A program made the translations under genes and the position numbers. From Caloramator sp. (lineage in GTDB: Bacteria; Bacillota; Clostridia; Clostridiales; Caloramatoraceae): a stretch of DNA of 39,868 bases. Of this stretch, positions 12,564-30,946 are shown piece by piece. Position 1 is the first letter of the stretch; each line of letters begins with the position of its first letter. The notes beneath the pieces were generated by a model. That model was not told where the DNA came from and did not search any database. It saw only the letters and a program-made list of their open reading frames with translations. Location: NCBI GenBank assembly GCA_026418935.1, contig JAOAAJ010000042.1, forward strand, positions 1 through 39,868. Direction: 5' to 3'.

Positions 12564-13142
12564 TTATTTTAATATCGTATGCATCTTTTTATATAGTACA
12601 AAGGTTACAAGTGAAGCTATAGTACCCTTTATTAGATTAAAAGGCATAATGCAGTAAACAATTAGAGTATTTAAATCTACAACCAATTTGTTTACCTTTG
12701 AAGTTATCTGAACAACTGCCTTTATTGGAAAATGTAAAACTTTTTCGTAAAGTGGTAAGAAAACATAATAGTTTGCAACTGACGCTACAATTGCCATAAC
12801 AAGTACACCTGCAATTAAAGACAAAACTGCTCCCTTTTTCGTTTTATCCCTTTTATAAAGTGCACCAGCAGTGTAAACCAAACTTGAACCTACAATAAAA
12901 TTAGCAAGTTCACCAATACCTGATGTATTACCCTTTGTAATAAGATGTAGAAGATTTTTTACCGCCTCCACAACAACGCCAAATACAGGTCCAAAGGCAA
13001 AGGCTGAAAACAATGCTGGAACATCGCTTAAATCAATCTTTAAAAACTCCGGGAATAGTGGCAGTGGAAATTCAATAAACATTATCAGATAGGCTACTGC
13101 TGCTAACATTGAAATTTTTGTTAGTTTTTGTGTTTTTGACAT
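12564..13142 (-). CDS. ribU: Riboflavin ECF transporter S component
   Basis: Substrate-binding membrane subunit for riboflavin uptake, working with shared EcfA/EcfA'/EcfT energy modules. 192 residues, about six hydrophobic helices. The helix-1/loop region LAAVAYLIMFIEFPLPLFPEFLKID-like (kept short here), SDVPALFSAFAFGP, and the later EAVKNLLHL...SGIGELANFI are RibU signatures. Start: the ATG at 13140-13142 has GGGGAGG six bases upstream. The frame stays open upstream to 13352, but that extension is translated FMN riboswitch and must not be called protein. The FMN riboswitch in the leader confirms the substrate class. The generic cbiO-cbiQ set elsewhere in the window is tied to cbiM, not to ribU. 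Confidence 0.93.
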   Translation of the reverse strand: MSKTQKLTKISMLAAVAYLIMFIEFPLPLFPEFLKIDLSDVPALFSAFAFGPVFGVVVEAVKNLLHLITKGNTSGIGELANFIVGSSLVYTAGALYKRDKTKKGAVLSLIAGVLVMAIVASVANYYVFLPLYEKVLHFPIKAVVQITSKVNKLVVDLNTLIVYCIMPFNLIKGTIASLVTFVLYKKMHTILK

Positions 13143-13182
13143 AAAATCCTCCCCTTTCTTAATCTCAGGGCGGAGAGAAAAT

Positions 13183-13207
13183 AAAAAACCTCTGAAATCT
13201 CCAGAGG
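13183..13207 (-). terminator. Riboswitch-controlled terminator of ribU
   Basis: CCTCTG-GAGATTT-CAGAGG followed by UUUUUUA on the minus strand, between the FMN aptamer and the ribU ribosome site. It is the expected expression platform: FMN-bound aptamer lets this stem form and stops transcription. Confidence 0.85.
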
Positions 13208-13220
13208 CAAAAAAGATAAA

Positions 13221-13326
13221 CCTTCTCCCATCCAGACTATACTGTCGGCCCCGGAATTTCACCGAGTCATGCCTTTCGGCTCGCGGGCTATACCGCCGGT
13301 CGGGAATTTCACCCTGCCCTGAAGAT
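13221..13326 (-). ncRNA. FMN riboswitch (RFN element)
   Basis: Minus-strand RNA contains the near-invariant blocks AGGGCAGGGTGAAATTCC, CGACCGGCGGTATAGCC, GTGAAATTCCGGGGCCGACA, and GTATAGTCTGGATGGGAGAAGG. Together they make the six-helix FMN aptamer essentially at consensus. It lies in the ribU leader, upstream of a terminator, so high FMN should switch riboflavin uptake off. Confidence 0.98.
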
Positions 13327-13351
13327 TTTAATATTCTTATTCTTTTATTCA

Positions 13352-13380
13352 ATTATATAATAATTTCCAATTAAATTCAA
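13352..13380 (-). promoter_or_regulatory. Promoter of the FMN riboswitch-ribU transcript
   Basis: Minus-strand TTGAAT (13375-13380), 17-base spacer and a perfect TATAAT (13352-13357). The predicted start, near 13345, is about 20 bases before the aptamer. The -35 lies just past the crp-like gene stop. Confidence 0.75.
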
Positions 13381-25672: not shown

Positions 25673-26398
25673 CTAAATTATATTATTTTGTTCTAAAAAT
25701 TCCTTATTACCTATGAGGCTTTCAAAATCACCATCATATATTATTTTGTGTTCACTTGATATTACAATAGCTTTTTTAAACACTCCCTTAAAATATTCAA
25801 AATCGTGTGTTGCACAGATTATAGTTTTACCATAATCATTTAGTGTTTTTAATAGTTCCTTTATTTTTCTTTTACTTTTAGGGTCTATTTCATTTAAAGG
25901 TTCATCTAATATTAAAACCTCTGGATTTAAAGCAAGAGTTGAAGCAATTGCAACCTTTTTCTTTTCACCACCGCTTAAAGTGTATGGAACTCTCTCCTTT
26001 AAATGTTCAATATCAAGTAATTTAAAACAGTCAAAAACTCTTTTTTCAACCTCTTCATATTTTATATCAAACTGAAAAAGCCCAAAGGCTACTTCATTAA
26101 AAACTGTTTTACAAAATAGCTGATTATCTGAATTTTGAAATACAAAGCCTACTCTTTTATGAAAAATTTTTCTTTTCTTTGCATCATTTATAAATTTATT
26201 ATCAATTCTCTGTCCATCAAATATATATTCTCCCTTTTTAATATCAAGTAAACCATTTAAAAACCTAAGCAAAGTAGTTTTACCTGAACCATTTGGTCCA
26301 ATTATAGCAACGCTTTCACCGTTATTTATTTTAAAGGATATATCATCTAATACTACATTTTCATTCAGCTTACAGGTTAAATTTTTTATTTCAATCAT
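25673..26398 (-). CDS. cbiO: Cobalt/nickel ECF transporter ATPase
   Basis: 241-residue ATP-binding subunit. Walker A GPNGSGKTT (about 35-43), Q-loop VFQNSDNQLFCKTVFNEVAFG typical of CbiO/EcfA (quoted in part), signature LSGGEKKKVAIAST, Walker B VLILDEPLNEIDP, H-loop CATHD. Last gene of the cbiM-cbiQ-cbiO operon, 29 bases after cbiQ, AAGGTG before the ATG. Single ATPase (homodimer expected), which fits dedicated type I ECF systems for metals. Confidence 0.92.
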   Translation of the reverse strand: MIEIKNLTCKLNENVVLDDISFKINNGESVAIIGPNGSGKTTLLRFLNGLLDIKKGEYIFDGQRIDNKFINDAKKRKIFHKRVGFVFQNSDNQLFCKTVFNEVAFGLFQFDIKYEEVEKRVFDCFKLLDIEHLKERVPYTLSGGEKKKVAIASTLALNPEVLILDEPLNEIDPKSKRKIKELLKTLNDYGKTIICATHDFEYFKGVFKKAIVISSEHKIIYDGDFESLIGNKEFLEQNNII

Positions 26399-26427: not shown

Positions 26428-27210
26428 TCATAGTATAAAAAATCCTAAAATAATAATTATATTTATTATACTATAAAAAAACTCAACCTTCCCAATCCTT
26501 TTATATATCTTATATTTAAACTCACCACTAAAACACCTACACTCTAAAGCTTCATCCATTTTAAAGCTCATATCAATAGAAGTTACAAATAAATTATACA
26601 TTATTTGTGATAAAGTATTATATGGCTTTTTAATGTATCCAACACTCCTTATCTTTAAACTACAAAGAATTGCATATGCCCTTTCTGATAACAAGTATAT
26701 AAACCTTATTGCAGAATTAAATATAAAAAGGACAATATTAGGAACTTTGATTAGTCTAAATGCTGAAATTATATTATGCCAATTTGATGTAATTGACATA
26801 ATCATTGTTAATGAAATTGATATAGTTATTTTAACTATAACCAATACTGCATTTTTGTTTCCCCAAAACCAAGATGGACCTATTATTAATGAAGATACAA
26901 CAAAGGCTACTAATGATATATTTAGTATCCTTAAAACATCCTTATCTTCTAAAAGAATTATAAGTAGTATTACATATGAAGCATTTAACATTATATAAAA
27001 CTTATTAAAGGAAAGGGATAGAAGTATTATATTGATGAGTGTAAAATAGAGCTTAAAAGCCTCGTGTATTCTATATATACCTCTACCCTTATTGTCAAAT
27101 CTCCTAATCTTTGATATAAGGCTTAATAGGGAAGAAAGAGTTTTTTCAATAAAAGATTCATTTCTAATTTTAAATTCAAACTCATCCTTTTCCTTTAACC
27201 AATCCATCAT
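26428..27210 (-). CDS. cbiQ: Cobalt/nickel ECF transporter transmembrane protein
   Basis: 260-residue T-component with about five membrane helices. Coupling-helix motifs of EcfT/CbiQ proteins are recognisable: SLKIRSVGYIKKPYN region and the ALECRCFSGEFKYK motif (A-x-x-x-R-x-F/G pattern near 225). It begins immediately after the cbiM stop (TAAATG), so it is coupled. Either of two adjacent ATG codons could start it. Connects CbiM and CbiO in the membrane. Confidence 0.88.
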   Translation of the reverse strand: MMDWLKEKDEFEFKIRNESFIEKTLSSLLSLISKIRRFDNKGRGIYRIHEAFKLYFTLINIILLSLSFNKFYIMLNASYVILLIILLEDKDVLRILNISLVAFVVSSLIIGPSWFWGNKNAVLVIVKITISISLTMIMSITSNWHNIISAFRLIKVPNIVLFIFNSAIRFIYLLSERAYAILCSLKIRSVGYIKKPYNTLSQIMYNLFVTSIDMSFKMDEALECRCFSGEFKYKIYKRIGKVEFFYSIINIIIILGFFIL

Positions 27211-28176
27211 TTAATTCTCTAACCCTTTCCTTGAAAATATACCAATTAACCTAAATAAAAGCATAATCATCATGACACCTAAAATAGCAGATATAATATA
27301 TCCTAATACTTCATTTACTCCTGAAACTGTGTAATCTGGCATAATAGCTTCAAAATTTAATCCCTTTTCCATTCCCTTTGGAACAAAACCTACAATTTCT
27401 TTTATCTCATCTAATCCCCACTCACCCCAAGCTGTTCCTTGAGCAATTAATCCAAGTGGTGATAAGGCTATTAATATAGCAATAAATATATATACTTTAT
27501 TCATCACTTTTGTTTTTCCATCATCCTCATAAATTTTTACTAAATTAATTTGTTTTGCAGCCTTATATATAAGTAATGATACAGCACCCTCAACAACCCC
27601 TGCAACTAAAAGATGCGACAGCATCATTGCAGGTATTGCTACATTTAAACCATATGGACAGTAAAGAGGAGTCCCATCTGCTGCTTTAAAAAGGTATGGC
27701 TGTATTCCAAATTCTATCGCAGTTAAAAATGCTGCAATATTAAGTCCTATGTATGAGCCTAAAAAAACTGCTAAGTTTTCATTTTTGTCCTTGAGCCTTT
27801 TATATATATAATATCCGCTAAAGGACATAGCAAAGGCCATATTGAATATATTAGCACCTAATGATAATATGCCTCCATCTCCAAAAAATAGGGCTTGTAT
27901 TGTAAGTGCAACAGCAACTGATATAAAGGCTGCATAAGGGCCAAGAAGTATAGCTATTATTACAGCTCCAACAGCGTGACCTGTTGTCCCTCCAAGCAGT
28001 GGAACATTAAACATCATAATTAAGAAGGAGTAGGCTGCTGCAACGCCTAAAAGAGACATTTTTCTTCTGTCTAATTCTTCTTTTACCTTAGCTATTGTTC
28101 TTTTAATTATTGGTATTATAGCCAAGTAAAAGGCTGTACAAGTAGATGGGCTTAAATAATTCTCTGGTATATGCAT
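27211..28176 (-). CDS. cbiM: Cobalt/nickel ECF transporter substrate-binding protein CbiM with fused C-terminal CbiN/PDGLE-like domain
   Basis: 321 residues. The first about 210 are CbiM/NikM: starts MHIPENYLSPST, where the free N-terminus and His2 coordinate the metal, with the second metal block GGTTGHAVGAV and the helical core LGANIFNMAFA. The last about 100 (NKVYIFIAILIALSPLGLI to the end, two membrane helices around an extracytoplasmic loop with WGEWGLDEIKE and PDYTV) correspond to CbiN/PDGLE domains that are separate proteins in enterobacteria. Ni versus Co cannot be decided from sequence. AAGGAGGGA before the ATG. The promoter and a terminator-containing leader are upstream, with no cobalamin riboswitch motif. 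Confidence 0.92.
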   Translation of the reverse strand: MHIPENYLSPSTCTAFYLAIIPIIKRTIAKVKEELDRRKMSLLGVAAAYSFLIMMFNVPLLGGTTGHAVGAVIIAILLGPYAAFISVAVALTIQALFFGDGGILSLGANIFNMAFAMSFSGYYIYKRLKDKNENLAVFLGSYIGLNIAAFLTAIEFGIQPYLFKAADGTPLYCPYGLNVAIPAMMLSHLLVAGVVEGAVSLLIYKAAKQINLVKIYEDDGKTKVMNKVYIFIAILIALSPLGLIAQGTAWGEWGLDEIKEIVGFVPKGMEKGLNFEAIMPDYTVSGVNEVLGYIISAILGVMMIMLLFRLIGIFSRKGLEN

Positions 28177-28214
28177 AAAATCCCTCCTTAAAATTTAATA
28201 CGTTATAAGTGATA

Positions 28215-28298
28215 TAAAAAAGGGTAGCGTTAAAAACGCTACCCTCGTGGTAACAATATTATTCTAAAAAGTTGATAATCAAACTGCCTTCGTGGCTA
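28215..28298 (-). ncRNA. cbiM leader: two ACGA-loop hairpins overlapping an attenuator
   Basis: From the predicted transcription start near 28298, the minus-strand RNA has: hairpin P1 GCC-ACGAA-GGC (28296-28286); an A/U-rich linker of about 31 bases; hairpin P2 GUUACC-ACGAG-GGUAGC (28254-28238, 6 bp with one G-U); and a perfect 11-bp terminator stem (28245-28235 with 28231-28221, loop 3) followed by UUUUUU. The 3' arm of P2 is part of the 5' arm of the terminator, so P2 and terminator exclude each other: stabilising P2 should let cbiM be read. The two-hairpin, ACGA-containing layout recalls mini-ykkC (guanidine-II), but loops here look like five bases. Not a known metal riboswitch as far as I recognise. 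Confidence 0.55.
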
Positions 28299-28304
28299 TA
28301 TTTA

Positions 28305-28333
28305 ATTTTATCAAAAATCATAGATTACTTCAA
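28305..28333 (-). promoter_or_regulatory. Promoter of the cbiMQO operon
   Basis: Minus-strand TTGAAG (28328-28333), 17-base spacer ending in TGA (extended -10) and TAAAAT (28305-28310). It puts the start two bases before hairpin P1 of the leader. Confidence 0.7.
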
Positions 28334-28361: not shown

Positions 28362-30413
28362 TCATATATTCCCGTTATAAACTTCCTTCATAGAATCAAG
28401 ATTAATTACACTTATTGCTCTACTTGATATTACAAACATTAGATTATCTACAAATACTGCTCTATAACCATATAATGGTTCTCTATACGCATCAGGTGAA
28501 TCAGTTTTGCTATGGGTTACCTTTGCCTTAATATCCAATTTACCATTCTTAATTTGCATTAGGCAAAGCCCTGAAAATTCAAGATTAAATGAATCATCAT
28601 TTTTAGTCTCATATAAATCAAAGGCATATAGGTCATATTTTCTATATTCAACAAGTGCCTTATGGTTGTAGAGGGATTCTGAGAAGGTACCCTTTCCACC
28701 AATTTCAATGCTATCCTTCTGCTTTGGATGGTTTAAATCAGATATATCAAATATTGCAACCTTCATACCCTTATTAACAACTCTTCCTTCCATTTCTCCT
28801 GTATCCATTCCAAAACCTATAATTGTATTTTCATCGTATGGGTGAAGGTAAGTGCTATAGCCTGGTATTTTTAGTAGTCCTAATATTTTAGGTTCTCTTG
28901 GATTTTTTAAATCTATTACAAATAGAGGGTCTACCTGTTTAAAGGTAACCATATAAAGTTTATCTCCTACAAACCTTGTTGAGTATATTCTTTCATCAGG
29001 TGCTATATTATTAATCTTTCCTACAACATTCATATTTTTATCTATTACAAATACATTGTTTGATGTTGAAAATTTATTATTTTCATTTATGCTCTCTGTT
29101 GTTGCTATTCTAAAGTATCCGTCATACTCATCCATTGAAAATTGATTTATTATTCTTCCCTTTACACTTGTAAACTTCTTATACTCAACCTTTTCTTCTA
29201 AATCAAATTTATATATAACTGTATTTTCATCATAGACTGAAACTGCTATGCTCTCATTTGGCTTACTTGAATCCTGCTTTATTTCTTTATAATTTACAGC
29301 AGTTTTAACAAGGTATAGACTCTCATGGGACATATACATATTTTCAAAATATCCTAAAACAACCTGATTACTTATCTTATTATTGATTAAGTCAATTGAG
29401 GATATAATTGTATAGTTTGGTTGAATGTCCTGCTTGTTATATCTAATGTTGCTTGCATCTATTTCTTTTTTAATTGCTTCTTGACCATATTCTATATAAT
29501 ATGGTATTAAATTGTCATTTTTATTTAATTCGCTTATATAATAGTAAAATCCTTTATTTGTTACTAAATATACCTTCCCATCCTTTAGCCTTGCCGACAA
29601 TTTATTTCCTGTAATTTCGTATTGCTTAACTGGATTAACCTTTTCAATATCAGATACATCATAAACACTTATAAGTGTTGTATCTTCTCCATAGTATATT
29701 GGCATTATGCCTATTACCCTTTCTTTTAATGTTGGCTGCTGTGGATTTTCTTTATATCTATTTACACTGGACATAATAATCAAGTAATCTCTGTCACCAT
29801 TTTTGTATAAAAACATATCTTGTAAGCCTATATGCCTTTTATATCCCTTAAACTCCTTTGCCTCTTTGTTACCTAATATATCTTCTCCATTTAAGTTTAA
29901 AACCTTTTTAGGTTTCTCCTCTGCTGTATATACATTTAATTCGTTTCTTTCAAAGTTTATAACATAAATATACTTTCCATCTGTTTTTATAATGTCTGCC
30001 TCATCTATTCCCTCAACCTGAACATTTGTATTTGAATGTTCTTTTGAAGCTGGTTGTGCTGATGAATCTAATGCCTTCTCTTCTTTTGCTCTTCCCCCAA
30101 AGAATCTTATTCCACCACTTTGTTCTCTTAATTTTTTGTTCATCATAGAAACAAACTCTTTTTTACTTTGAACCTGCGTAAGCTCATAGGATAAATCCTT
30201 TGCATCCTTATCCTGCCTTAAGTAGGATAAAACATAGGTGAAGGCAAAAATAGAAACTACCAAGGTCATAACTACAGCTGCCCATCTTCTCTTCATAACT
30301 ATCCCTCCTTTATTTAAATCTTTACATTTTAATAGGGTTCTTCTTTTTAAGTCTTCACTTATGTATATTTCATCAAGCCTTCTTAAATCAAGCTCCCTTT
30401 TGTCATTCCTCAT
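28362..30413 (-). CDS. Membrane-anchored beta-propeller protein, likely partner of the ECF sigma factor
   Basis: Up to 683 residues. After a short charged N-terminus (MRNDKRELDLRRLDEIY) comes one membrane helix (about 44-62, WAAVVMTLVVSIFAFTYVL), then a long extracytoplasmic part of the pfam Beta_propel type: NTNVQVEGIDEADIIKTDGKYIYV, repeated blade strands such as GYFRIATTES, STRFVGDKLYMVTF and DPLFVIDLKNPREPKILG (fragments). ATG overlaps the sigma gene stop and has GGAGGG upstream; a second ATG at 30294-30296 (MKRRWAAV) also has a strong AAAGGAGGG, so two forms are possible. Adjacent, overlapping gene order implies an anti-sigma or signal-receiving role, but no ZAS/RsiW domain is recognised; that role is inference. 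Confidence 0.8.
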   Translation of the reverse strand: MRNDKRELDLRRLDEIYISEDLKRRTLLKCKDLNKGGIVMKRRWAAVVMTLVVSIFAFTYVLSYLRQDKDAKDLSYELTQVQSKKEFVSMMNKKLREQSGGIRFFGGRAKEEKALDSSAQPASKEHSNTNVQVEGIDEADIIKTDGKYIYVINFERNELNVYTAEEKPKKVLNLNGEDILGNKEAKEFKGYKRHIGLQDMFLYKNGDRDYLIIMSSVNRYKENPQQPTLKERVIGIMPIYYGEDTTLISVYDVSDIEKVNPVKQYEITGNKLSARLKDGKVYLVTNKGFYYYISELNKNDNLIPYYIEYGQEAIKKEIDASNIRYNKQDIQPNYTIISSIDLINNKISNQVVLGYFENMYMSHESLYLVKTAVNYKEIKQDSSKPNESIAVSVYDENTVIYKFDLEEKVEYKKFTSVKGRIINQFSMDEYDGYFRIATTESINENNKFSTSNNVFVIDKNMNVVGKINNIAPDERIYSTRFVGDKLYMVTFKQVDPLFVIDLKNPREPKILGLLKIPGYSTYLHPYDENTIIGFGMDTGEMEGRVVNKGMKVAIFDISDLNHPKQKDSIEIGGKGTFSESLYNHKALVEYRKYDLYAFDLYETKNDDSFNLEFSGLCLMQIKNGKLDIKAKVTHSKTDSPDAYREPLYGYRAVFVDNLMFVISSRAISVINLDSMKEVYNGNI

Positions 30414-30924
30414 AGGCTAATCCCTCCTTAAGATTGCTTCTAAGTATTTCTCTTGCTCGCATAAGCCTACTTCTTATAGTCGATTCTTTAGTATTTAATA
30501 TCTGTGACATATCCGCTGTTGTAAATCCTTTGTAATAGTAAAGATATACAACAACTCTATACTTTTCAGGCAGTTTCAATACTGCTTCAAGTATGTAATC
30601 CCTTTCTATTTCTTTAATCACATCATTTTCAACAGTTTCCTTTTCTTCTGTTTTAACATCCCAAAACAAAATATTTCTCTTTATCCAAGCACTTTTTAAA
30701 TAATCTTTACAAGTATTTATTGCTATCCTTGTAATCCAAGTATATACATCTGAATCCTGCCTAAACTTATCTATATTCTTATATATCTTTATAAACACCT
30801 CTTGAAATAAATCCTCAGCCTGTGAATAATCCTTTGTGTATATAAAGCAGAGTCTTAAAACATCATCTCCATATTCATCAATTAAAGTCTCAATTTCTGC
30901 ATTTCTATCCTGCCTACTAATCAC
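30403..30924 (-). CDS. ECF-type RNA polymerase sigma factor
   Basis: About 173 residues from a GTG at 30922-30924 (ribosome site GGGAGG seven bases upstream; the more distal GTG at 30940-30942 lies within that region). Sigma region 2 spans about 20-80 (YGDDVLRLCFIYTKDYSQAEDLFQEVF with VYTWITRIAINTCKDYLK), region 4 about 115-165 (LPEKYRVVVYLYYYKGFTTADMSQIL with RSRLMRAREIL), quoted in fragments. Region 3 is absent, as in ECF factors. An ECF-like promoter precedes the gene, suggesting autoregulation. Overlaps the beta-propeller gene by 11 bases. Confidence 0.9.
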   Translation of the reverse strand: MISRQDRNAEIETLIDEYGDDVLRLCFIYTKDYSQAEDLFQEVFIKIYKNIDKFRQDSDVYTWITRIAINTCKDYLKSAWIKRNILFWDVKTEEKETVENDVIKEIERDYILEAVLKLPEKYRVVVYLYYYKGFTTADMSQILNTKESTIRSRLMRAREILRSNLKEGLAYEE

Positions 30925-30946
30925 ACCTCTTCCTCCCTTCACATAT

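Follow-up and report, generated by a model that had tools for sequence, protein, structure and literature searches.

The window analysed here is a 39,868-nucleotide stretch of a Caloramator sp. genome (contig JAOAAJ010000042.1). It contains a minus-strand cbiMQO operon for a Co/Ni importer of the ECF type, and the 185-bp gap from the end of the upstream beta-propeller gene (28362) to cbiM is filled by a leader in which two small hairpins, P1 and P2, precede an intrinsic terminator. In the following list, the -35 box, the terminator U-tract and the Shine-Dalgarno motif are read from the sequence, the extended -10 is assigned by its match to the consensus alone, and the transcription start is predicted from the promoter consensus.

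28333-28328, minus strand: -35 box TTGAAG, separated from the -10 by a 17-nt spacer
28305..28313, minus strand: extended -10 TGATAAAAT (TGA-TAAAAT)
about 28298-28297, minus strand: predicted transcription start, approximately two bases 5' of P1
28296-28286, minus strand: hairpin P1, GCC-ACGAA-GGC, 8 nt past the -10
28255..28285, minus strand: P1-P2 linker of 31 nt, unconserved (about 12-59 nt in relatives)
28254-28238, minus strand: hairpin P2 (putative antiterminator), GUUACC-ACGAG-GGUAGC
28246-28220, minus strand: intrinsic terminator hairpin, 12 pairs, loop UUU
28221-28216, minus strand: U-tract of the terminator
28183..28189, minus strand: Shine-Dalgarno motif AAGGAGG of cbiM
27211..28176, minus strand: cbiM (CbiM plus PDGLE domain), substrate-specific component of a Co/Ni ECF importer (NF005598, PF01891, PF13190)
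26428..27210, minus strand: cbiQ, ECF T component (PF02361)
25673..26398, minus strand: cbiO, ECF ATPase, part of the cbiMQO operon

The CbiM protein of the window scores 445 bits on NF005598, for which the cut-off is 401. Directly upstream of the element lie an ECF sigma factor gene and then the beta-propeller gene (PF09826), together spanning 28362-30942 on the minus strand. Elsewhere in the window, an ECF S-component gene (frame 12564-13352), presumably encoding a riboflavin transporter, has an FMN riboswitch (120.7 bits; 13216-13330, minus strand) at its start.

The 3' arm of P2 (28243-28238) lies inside the 5' arm of the terminator, and P2 and the terminator are therefore mutually exclusive. 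The element is present in front of cbiM as the preliminary description had it, with an extended -10 promoter whose predicted start falls some two bases before P1, with P1, P2 and a U-tailed terminator that cannot coexist with P2, and with loops of five bases in both hairpins. The promoter layout TTGAAG-17-TTAAAAT also occurs at another element (L004). Across the 80 elements collected as set out below, a -10 box was present in 74, with 64 expected from shuffles; as this enrichment is weak, the promoter assignment in the window rests on the local match.

Folding energies indicate which of the two exclusive structures would prevail in the free RNA. In the window element, P1 together with the terminator folds with -22.8 kcal/mol against -11.7 kcal/mol when P2 is forced, and a slightly longer piece reaches -26.2 kcal/mol (z = -5.3), a value that none of 200 shuffles equalled. 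Mean energies over the 80 elements are -3.7 kcal/mol for P2 alone and -20.6 kcal/mol for the part containing the terminator, and a U-tract terminator excluding P2 was present in all 80 elements examined. A terminator part that is far stronger than P2 alone and always exclusive with it suggests a leader whose default state is OFF and in which, judging from this anatomy, P2 would need to be stabilised for the genes to be switched ON.

The element is not confined to the window. The species collection and 60 related genomes supplied CbiM homologues, and twin hairpins precede the cbiM genes of Thermobrachium celere, Caloramator proteoclasticus, Fonticella tunisiensis, Clostridium tetanomorphum and other relatives. 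Each hairpin of these leaders carries the loop ACGAA or ACGAG, stems and linker differ, and the terminator takes up either the 3' arm of P2 or the whole of P2; in front of more distant cbiM genes the element is often absent. Conservation in related cbiM leaders was the point on which the preliminary description had proposed to let its reading fall, and the hairpins proved to be conserved there, the on-switch architecture of two hairpins with P2 set against a terminator recurring across genera with covariation. By pattern search, the genome from which the window derives contains three copies of the element, one before cbiM, one before an operon encoding FmdE, a FecCD permease, an ATPase and a substrate-binding protein, and one before the gene of an orphan ECF S-component, and this trio of contexts recurs within the genus.

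A covariance model (R1) was built from 22 sequences, its seeds being partly cbiM and FmdE leaders. In genome-wide searches with this model, whose E-values are rough, the element was detected within the order in 59 of 226 genomes, in 14 of 391 genomes of a class sample that includes members of the order, and in 5 of 398 genomes of a phylum sample, its occurrence outside the order being sporadic. Most of the 80 elements were obtained by these genome-wide searches and not from seed leaders. The window element itself scores 63.7 bits against R1, with its own sequence in the training set. Six matches (L218, L255, L257, L260, L261 and L274), all with E > 0.008 and lacking a convincing element or nickel gene, were set aside as false positives or remnants. 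At five other loci (L256, L230, L227, L231 and L031), P2 and the terminator are intact, and a P1 carrying the loop motif cannot be recognised nearby.

This distribution bears on a simpler explanation, namely that the terminator merely ends the upstream beta-propeller gene and that P1 and P2 resemble each other by chance. The hairpin does lie about 115 bp past the stop of that gene and on the same strand, and the preliminary description had allowed for such a role. However, one pair of twin ACGAR hairpins was found in the window where the same rule yields 0.005 per dinucleotide-shuffled window, and the terminator, together with the hairpins, recurs behind unrelated upstream genes, both before cbiM and before other nickel genes. 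Conservation and the covariation described next already refute this explanation, which is scarcely credible, and the element is almost certainly a real, conserved leader RNA.

In an alignment of 53 elements, 145 cells in the two stems carry changes on both sides. The covariation score is 0.641, compared with 0.239 after shuffling and 0.06-0.16 with slid partners, scores of this kind being inflated by kinship, which the slid-partner controls retain; 22 sequences gave a similar outcome. All six pairs of P1 show compensatory changes across the 53 elements, and the two loop-proximal pairs of P2 are nearly fixed as C-G. The loops were recorded by an unbiased search over the 80 elements collected with R1, in which the best hairpin was taken whatever its loop of 3-8 nt. 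For P2, 78 of the 79 scorable elements returned a motif pentaloop (69 ACGAA, 8 ACGAG, 1 AUGAA), and the one remaining pick, AACTC at L262, is an artefact at a locus where the real P2 is CUC-ACGAA-GGG. For P1, a pentaloop was returned in 68 of 79 (43 ACGAA, 22 ACGAG, 2 AUGAA, 1 AAGAA). Loops are mostly closed by C-G or U-A; P1 has C-G, U-A, U-G or A-U as its closing pair, and P2 has C-G. The window element shares what defines the family, with AYGAR pentaloops in P1 and P2, exclusion between P2 and the terminator, and a nickel-type gene downstream.

The inverted repeats adjoin the promoter, as would be expected if they were DNA operators of a repressor and not RNA structures. Operators of this kind are nevertheless very unlikely, as the stems vary with compensatory changes around a fixed, non-palindromic loop, and the repeats are located past the predicted start and in every case exclude a terminator.

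The rare loop AUGAA is found in both hairpins at once before an ECF S-component gene (L213), before FmdE (L273) and at CbiM-type loci (L281, L286, L293, L295, L296 and L298), and in a single hairpin at L212 only. Further exceptions to loop matching are L254 (AAGAA/ACGAA) and L297 (AGGAA, then AUGAA). Concerted occurrence of AUGAA gives a Fisher p of 7e-10 on raw counts and of about 0.002 after hand-thinning to independent contexts, the thinned counts being the author's estimate. Since AUGAA is almost always concerted, the two loops are matched within an element. Such matching fits a reader of both loops, possibly existing in two loop-specific versions, or a direct contact between the loops.

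The genes behind the element point to nickel. A nickel-type gene was first downstream in 78 of the 80 elements, the first recognisable gene being CbiM/CbiQ in 44 cases, an ECF S-component in 15, FmdE in 10, NikA/NikB-type in 6, NicO in 2 and LarC in 1, with none in 2. Because reference proteins were partly taken from the same loci, gene names rest on Pfam and NCBIfam. NicO (PF03824) stands behind the element at L211 and L223; LarC, LarE and LarB exceed their curated cut-offs at L217; LarC follows cbiMQO at L208, and HypB, also with a score above its cut-off, follows cbiMQO at L150. A NikB-like permease lies behind the element at L201, and at L197 the element is followed by a NikA-like SBP_bac_5 protein, a carbonic-anhydrase-like lipoprotein and then the urease genes ureA/ureB (urease gamma). 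The NikA/NikB assignments fall below the equivalog cut-offs, so that by sequence alone these genes could encode peptide transporters, and they are read as nickel genes because of the company that they keep. At L197, an Rfam match to 5_ureB_sRNA (810-1101) lies on the strand opposite the urease genes.

Two further gene families belong to this set. One consists of orphan ECF S-components that share the signature LPMHIPV(L/M)L and are found under the element at L121, L209, L219, L236, L244, L247, L251, L258 and L294; a nickel-related substrate is predicted for them. At L209, L219, L236 and L244, the ECF S-component gene is followed by one that probably encodes a SAM-dependent methyltransferase (about 190 aa). 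The other is the operon encoding FmdE (with a DksA/TraR zinc finger), FecCD, an ATPase and a substrate-binding protein, which occurs at L143 (C66 in the genome of the window), L145, L147, L148, L262 and L273; its position suggests an importer of nickel or of a nickel chelate. For both families a nickel role, not previously established, would be probable on the basis of regulon membership. At L237 (genome G149), a good element resembling the lar leader of L217 precedes genes without nickel annotation and is possibly a remnant left after rearrangement.

As several transporter types and the genes for the nickel pincer cofactor, hydrogenase and urease have nickel in common, the set can be read as a nickel regulon. 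Based on this comparison of sequences, which also documents the RNA family, its covariation and the exclusion of the terminator, it is highly probable that the element controls genes for nickel uptake and nickel-enzyme assembly in Clostridia. In other bacteria, target genes of the same kind are controlled by NikR (PMC2667541), which acts by protein-DNA repression and is nearly absent from the order. Of the 226 genomes of the order, 16 gave weak matches to the NikR_C profile, and among the matches listed the frames are about 80-116 aa long. These are probably not genuine NikR proteins, and the order probably has no standard nickel repressor.

Comparison with known RNA systems did not reveal an existing family to which the element belongs. 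In Rfam 15, no family exceeded its gathering threshold at the window element or at 20 positive loci, and at the window element an E-value limit of 10 returned chance-level matches only (E = 0.04-7). Searches of the open-access literature on cbiM or nickel in connection with riboswitches, attenuation or antitermination revealed no account of the element, nor was it found in the text of a premature-terminator survey, a review of C. difficile riboswitches or a 50-genome ncRNA survey. The NiCo (czcD) riboswitch, cited in PMC11477304 as having since been reinterpreted as an iron riboswitch, is likewise a leader RNA controlling transition-metal genes, but its genes serve metal efflux whereas those of the element serve nickel import and insertion, and its Rfam model had no match in the window or at the 20 positive loci. 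Firmicutes also carry the guanidine-IV variant Gd4v (PMC9788692), a motif with two hairpins, a terminator and no known ligand. Identity with Gd4v was rejected, as its hairpins form a pseudoknotted pair of which the second is itself the terminator, and it precedes transaminase, GNAT and MATE genes and no nickel genes (PMC9788692).

The preliminary description had likened the element to the mini-ykkC (guanidine-II) riboswitch, which would then have acquired a new gene association. Guanidine-II RNA (RF01068, PMC5486947) does share with the element two similar hairpins, loops containing ACGA and a variable spacer, and on-switch logic would suit both. Yet the loops of guanidine-II are ACGR tetraloops, and the 5' base of their closing pair is a G on which guanidine stacks (PMC5486947), while the element has loops of five and not four nucleotides closed mostly by C-G or U-A and not G-C, excludes a terminator and sits before nickel genes. 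No guanidine gene was present among the genes classified downstream of the 80 elements, and RF01068 had no match at the window element or at the elements of 15 positive genomes even at E = 10. The guanidine-II reading is thus largely refuted and very improbable, and the loose link through a nickel-dependent guanidine hydrolase that had been offered as speculation is not needed. The other suggestion made at that stage, a Co/Ni-responsive element or one bound by a protein, is strongly favoured, with the regulon narrowing the metal to nickel.

An architectural parallel is the class of antiterminators bound by ANTAR proteins, such as the eut, nasF and amiE leaders (PMC3369931, PMC8934654), in which two hairpins precede an intrinsic terminator, P1 being free and P2 overlapping the terminator; a variable linker, loop-specific conservation and a default OFF state are also shared. 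An ordinary ANTAR substrate is still a highly improbable identity for the element. ANTAR target RNAs carry hexaloops that require A1 and G4 (PMC8934654, PMC3369931), whereas the loops of the element are ACGAR, rarely AUGAA, with five nucleotides (A1 C2 G3 A4 R5) and hence A4, and they precede nickel genes. Moreover, the ANTAR profile exceeded its cut-off in 20 of 37 element-bearing genomes and had no match over the cut-off in the other 17, several of which are single-contig genomes of 98-99% completeness (single-contig genomes in this group include G022, G087, G094 and G211).

We lean towards the view that the element represents a family of nickel-gene attenuators that are OFF by default and would be turned ON by a protein binding both loops under nickel shortage. 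The RNA would begin just 5' of P1, and in the default case the nascent leader would form the strong terminator, P2 would be swallowed and transcription would stop. A factor recognising the two similar ACGAR loops would keep P2, together with P1, folded, so that the terminator would be unable to form and the nickel genes would be transcribed. That the element is an ON-type antiterminator is very likely. As the targets are mainly genes for importers and for nickel insertion, a factor that acts at low nickel is most likely, and nickel shortage is the likely, if less secure, ON signal.

The reader of the loops would most likely be a trans-acting RNA-binding protein that acts in the manner of ANTAR proteins through a different domain and binds in its nickel-free form. 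A protein is judged reasonably probable and a sensor made of RNA alone less so, because an RNA that binds Ni2+ and thereby turns importers ON would work backwards, and because the architecture matches that of known protein-bound antiterminators. The case for such a protein comes mainly from the expectation that importers are switched ON at low metal; the genes next to the elements include no recurrent regulator.

Alternatively, the element could be a true riboswitch in which the loops of P1 and P2 kiss (CG with CG, as in guanidine-II) and form a pocket where a small ligand or ion stabilises P2. The ligand would be a nickel signal other than free Ni2+ if binding means ON, or Ni2+ itself if the metal breaks the loop contact. 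Tiny, strictly conserved loops on freely varying stems with a variable linker recall guanidine-II, and the missing regulator gene would also be in line with an RNA sensor. Concerted AUGAA loops occur in at least three gene contexts, and genome G985 contains both loop types, each concerted within its own element (ACGAA/ACGAA before an ECF S-component gene at L294, AUGAA/AUGAA before cbiM at L298). A kiss between C2 and G3' would, however, tolerate mixed C and U loops, so that concerted change is not simply implied by it, and two loop-specific proteins would explain the concerted loops equally well. Some elements, moreover, apparently have P2 only. A kissing-loop riboswitch is possible but less probable than a protein reader, and its fullest form, a riboswitch class not described before, whose two matching AYGAR pentaloops would touch, sense nickel status directly and control the nickel regulon of Clostridia without NikR, is slightly less probable still.

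If the reading as an antiterminator of nickel genes is right, antitermination at the RNA level would explain how nickel genes are regulated in many Clostridia that lack NikR. The element would offer a compact and testable RNA and would lead either to an antiterminator protein with a new domain or to a new riboswitch. Likewise it would give a probable nickel role to the orphan ECF S-component with the LPMHIPVLLCG signature and to the FmdE-FecCD-FecB operon.
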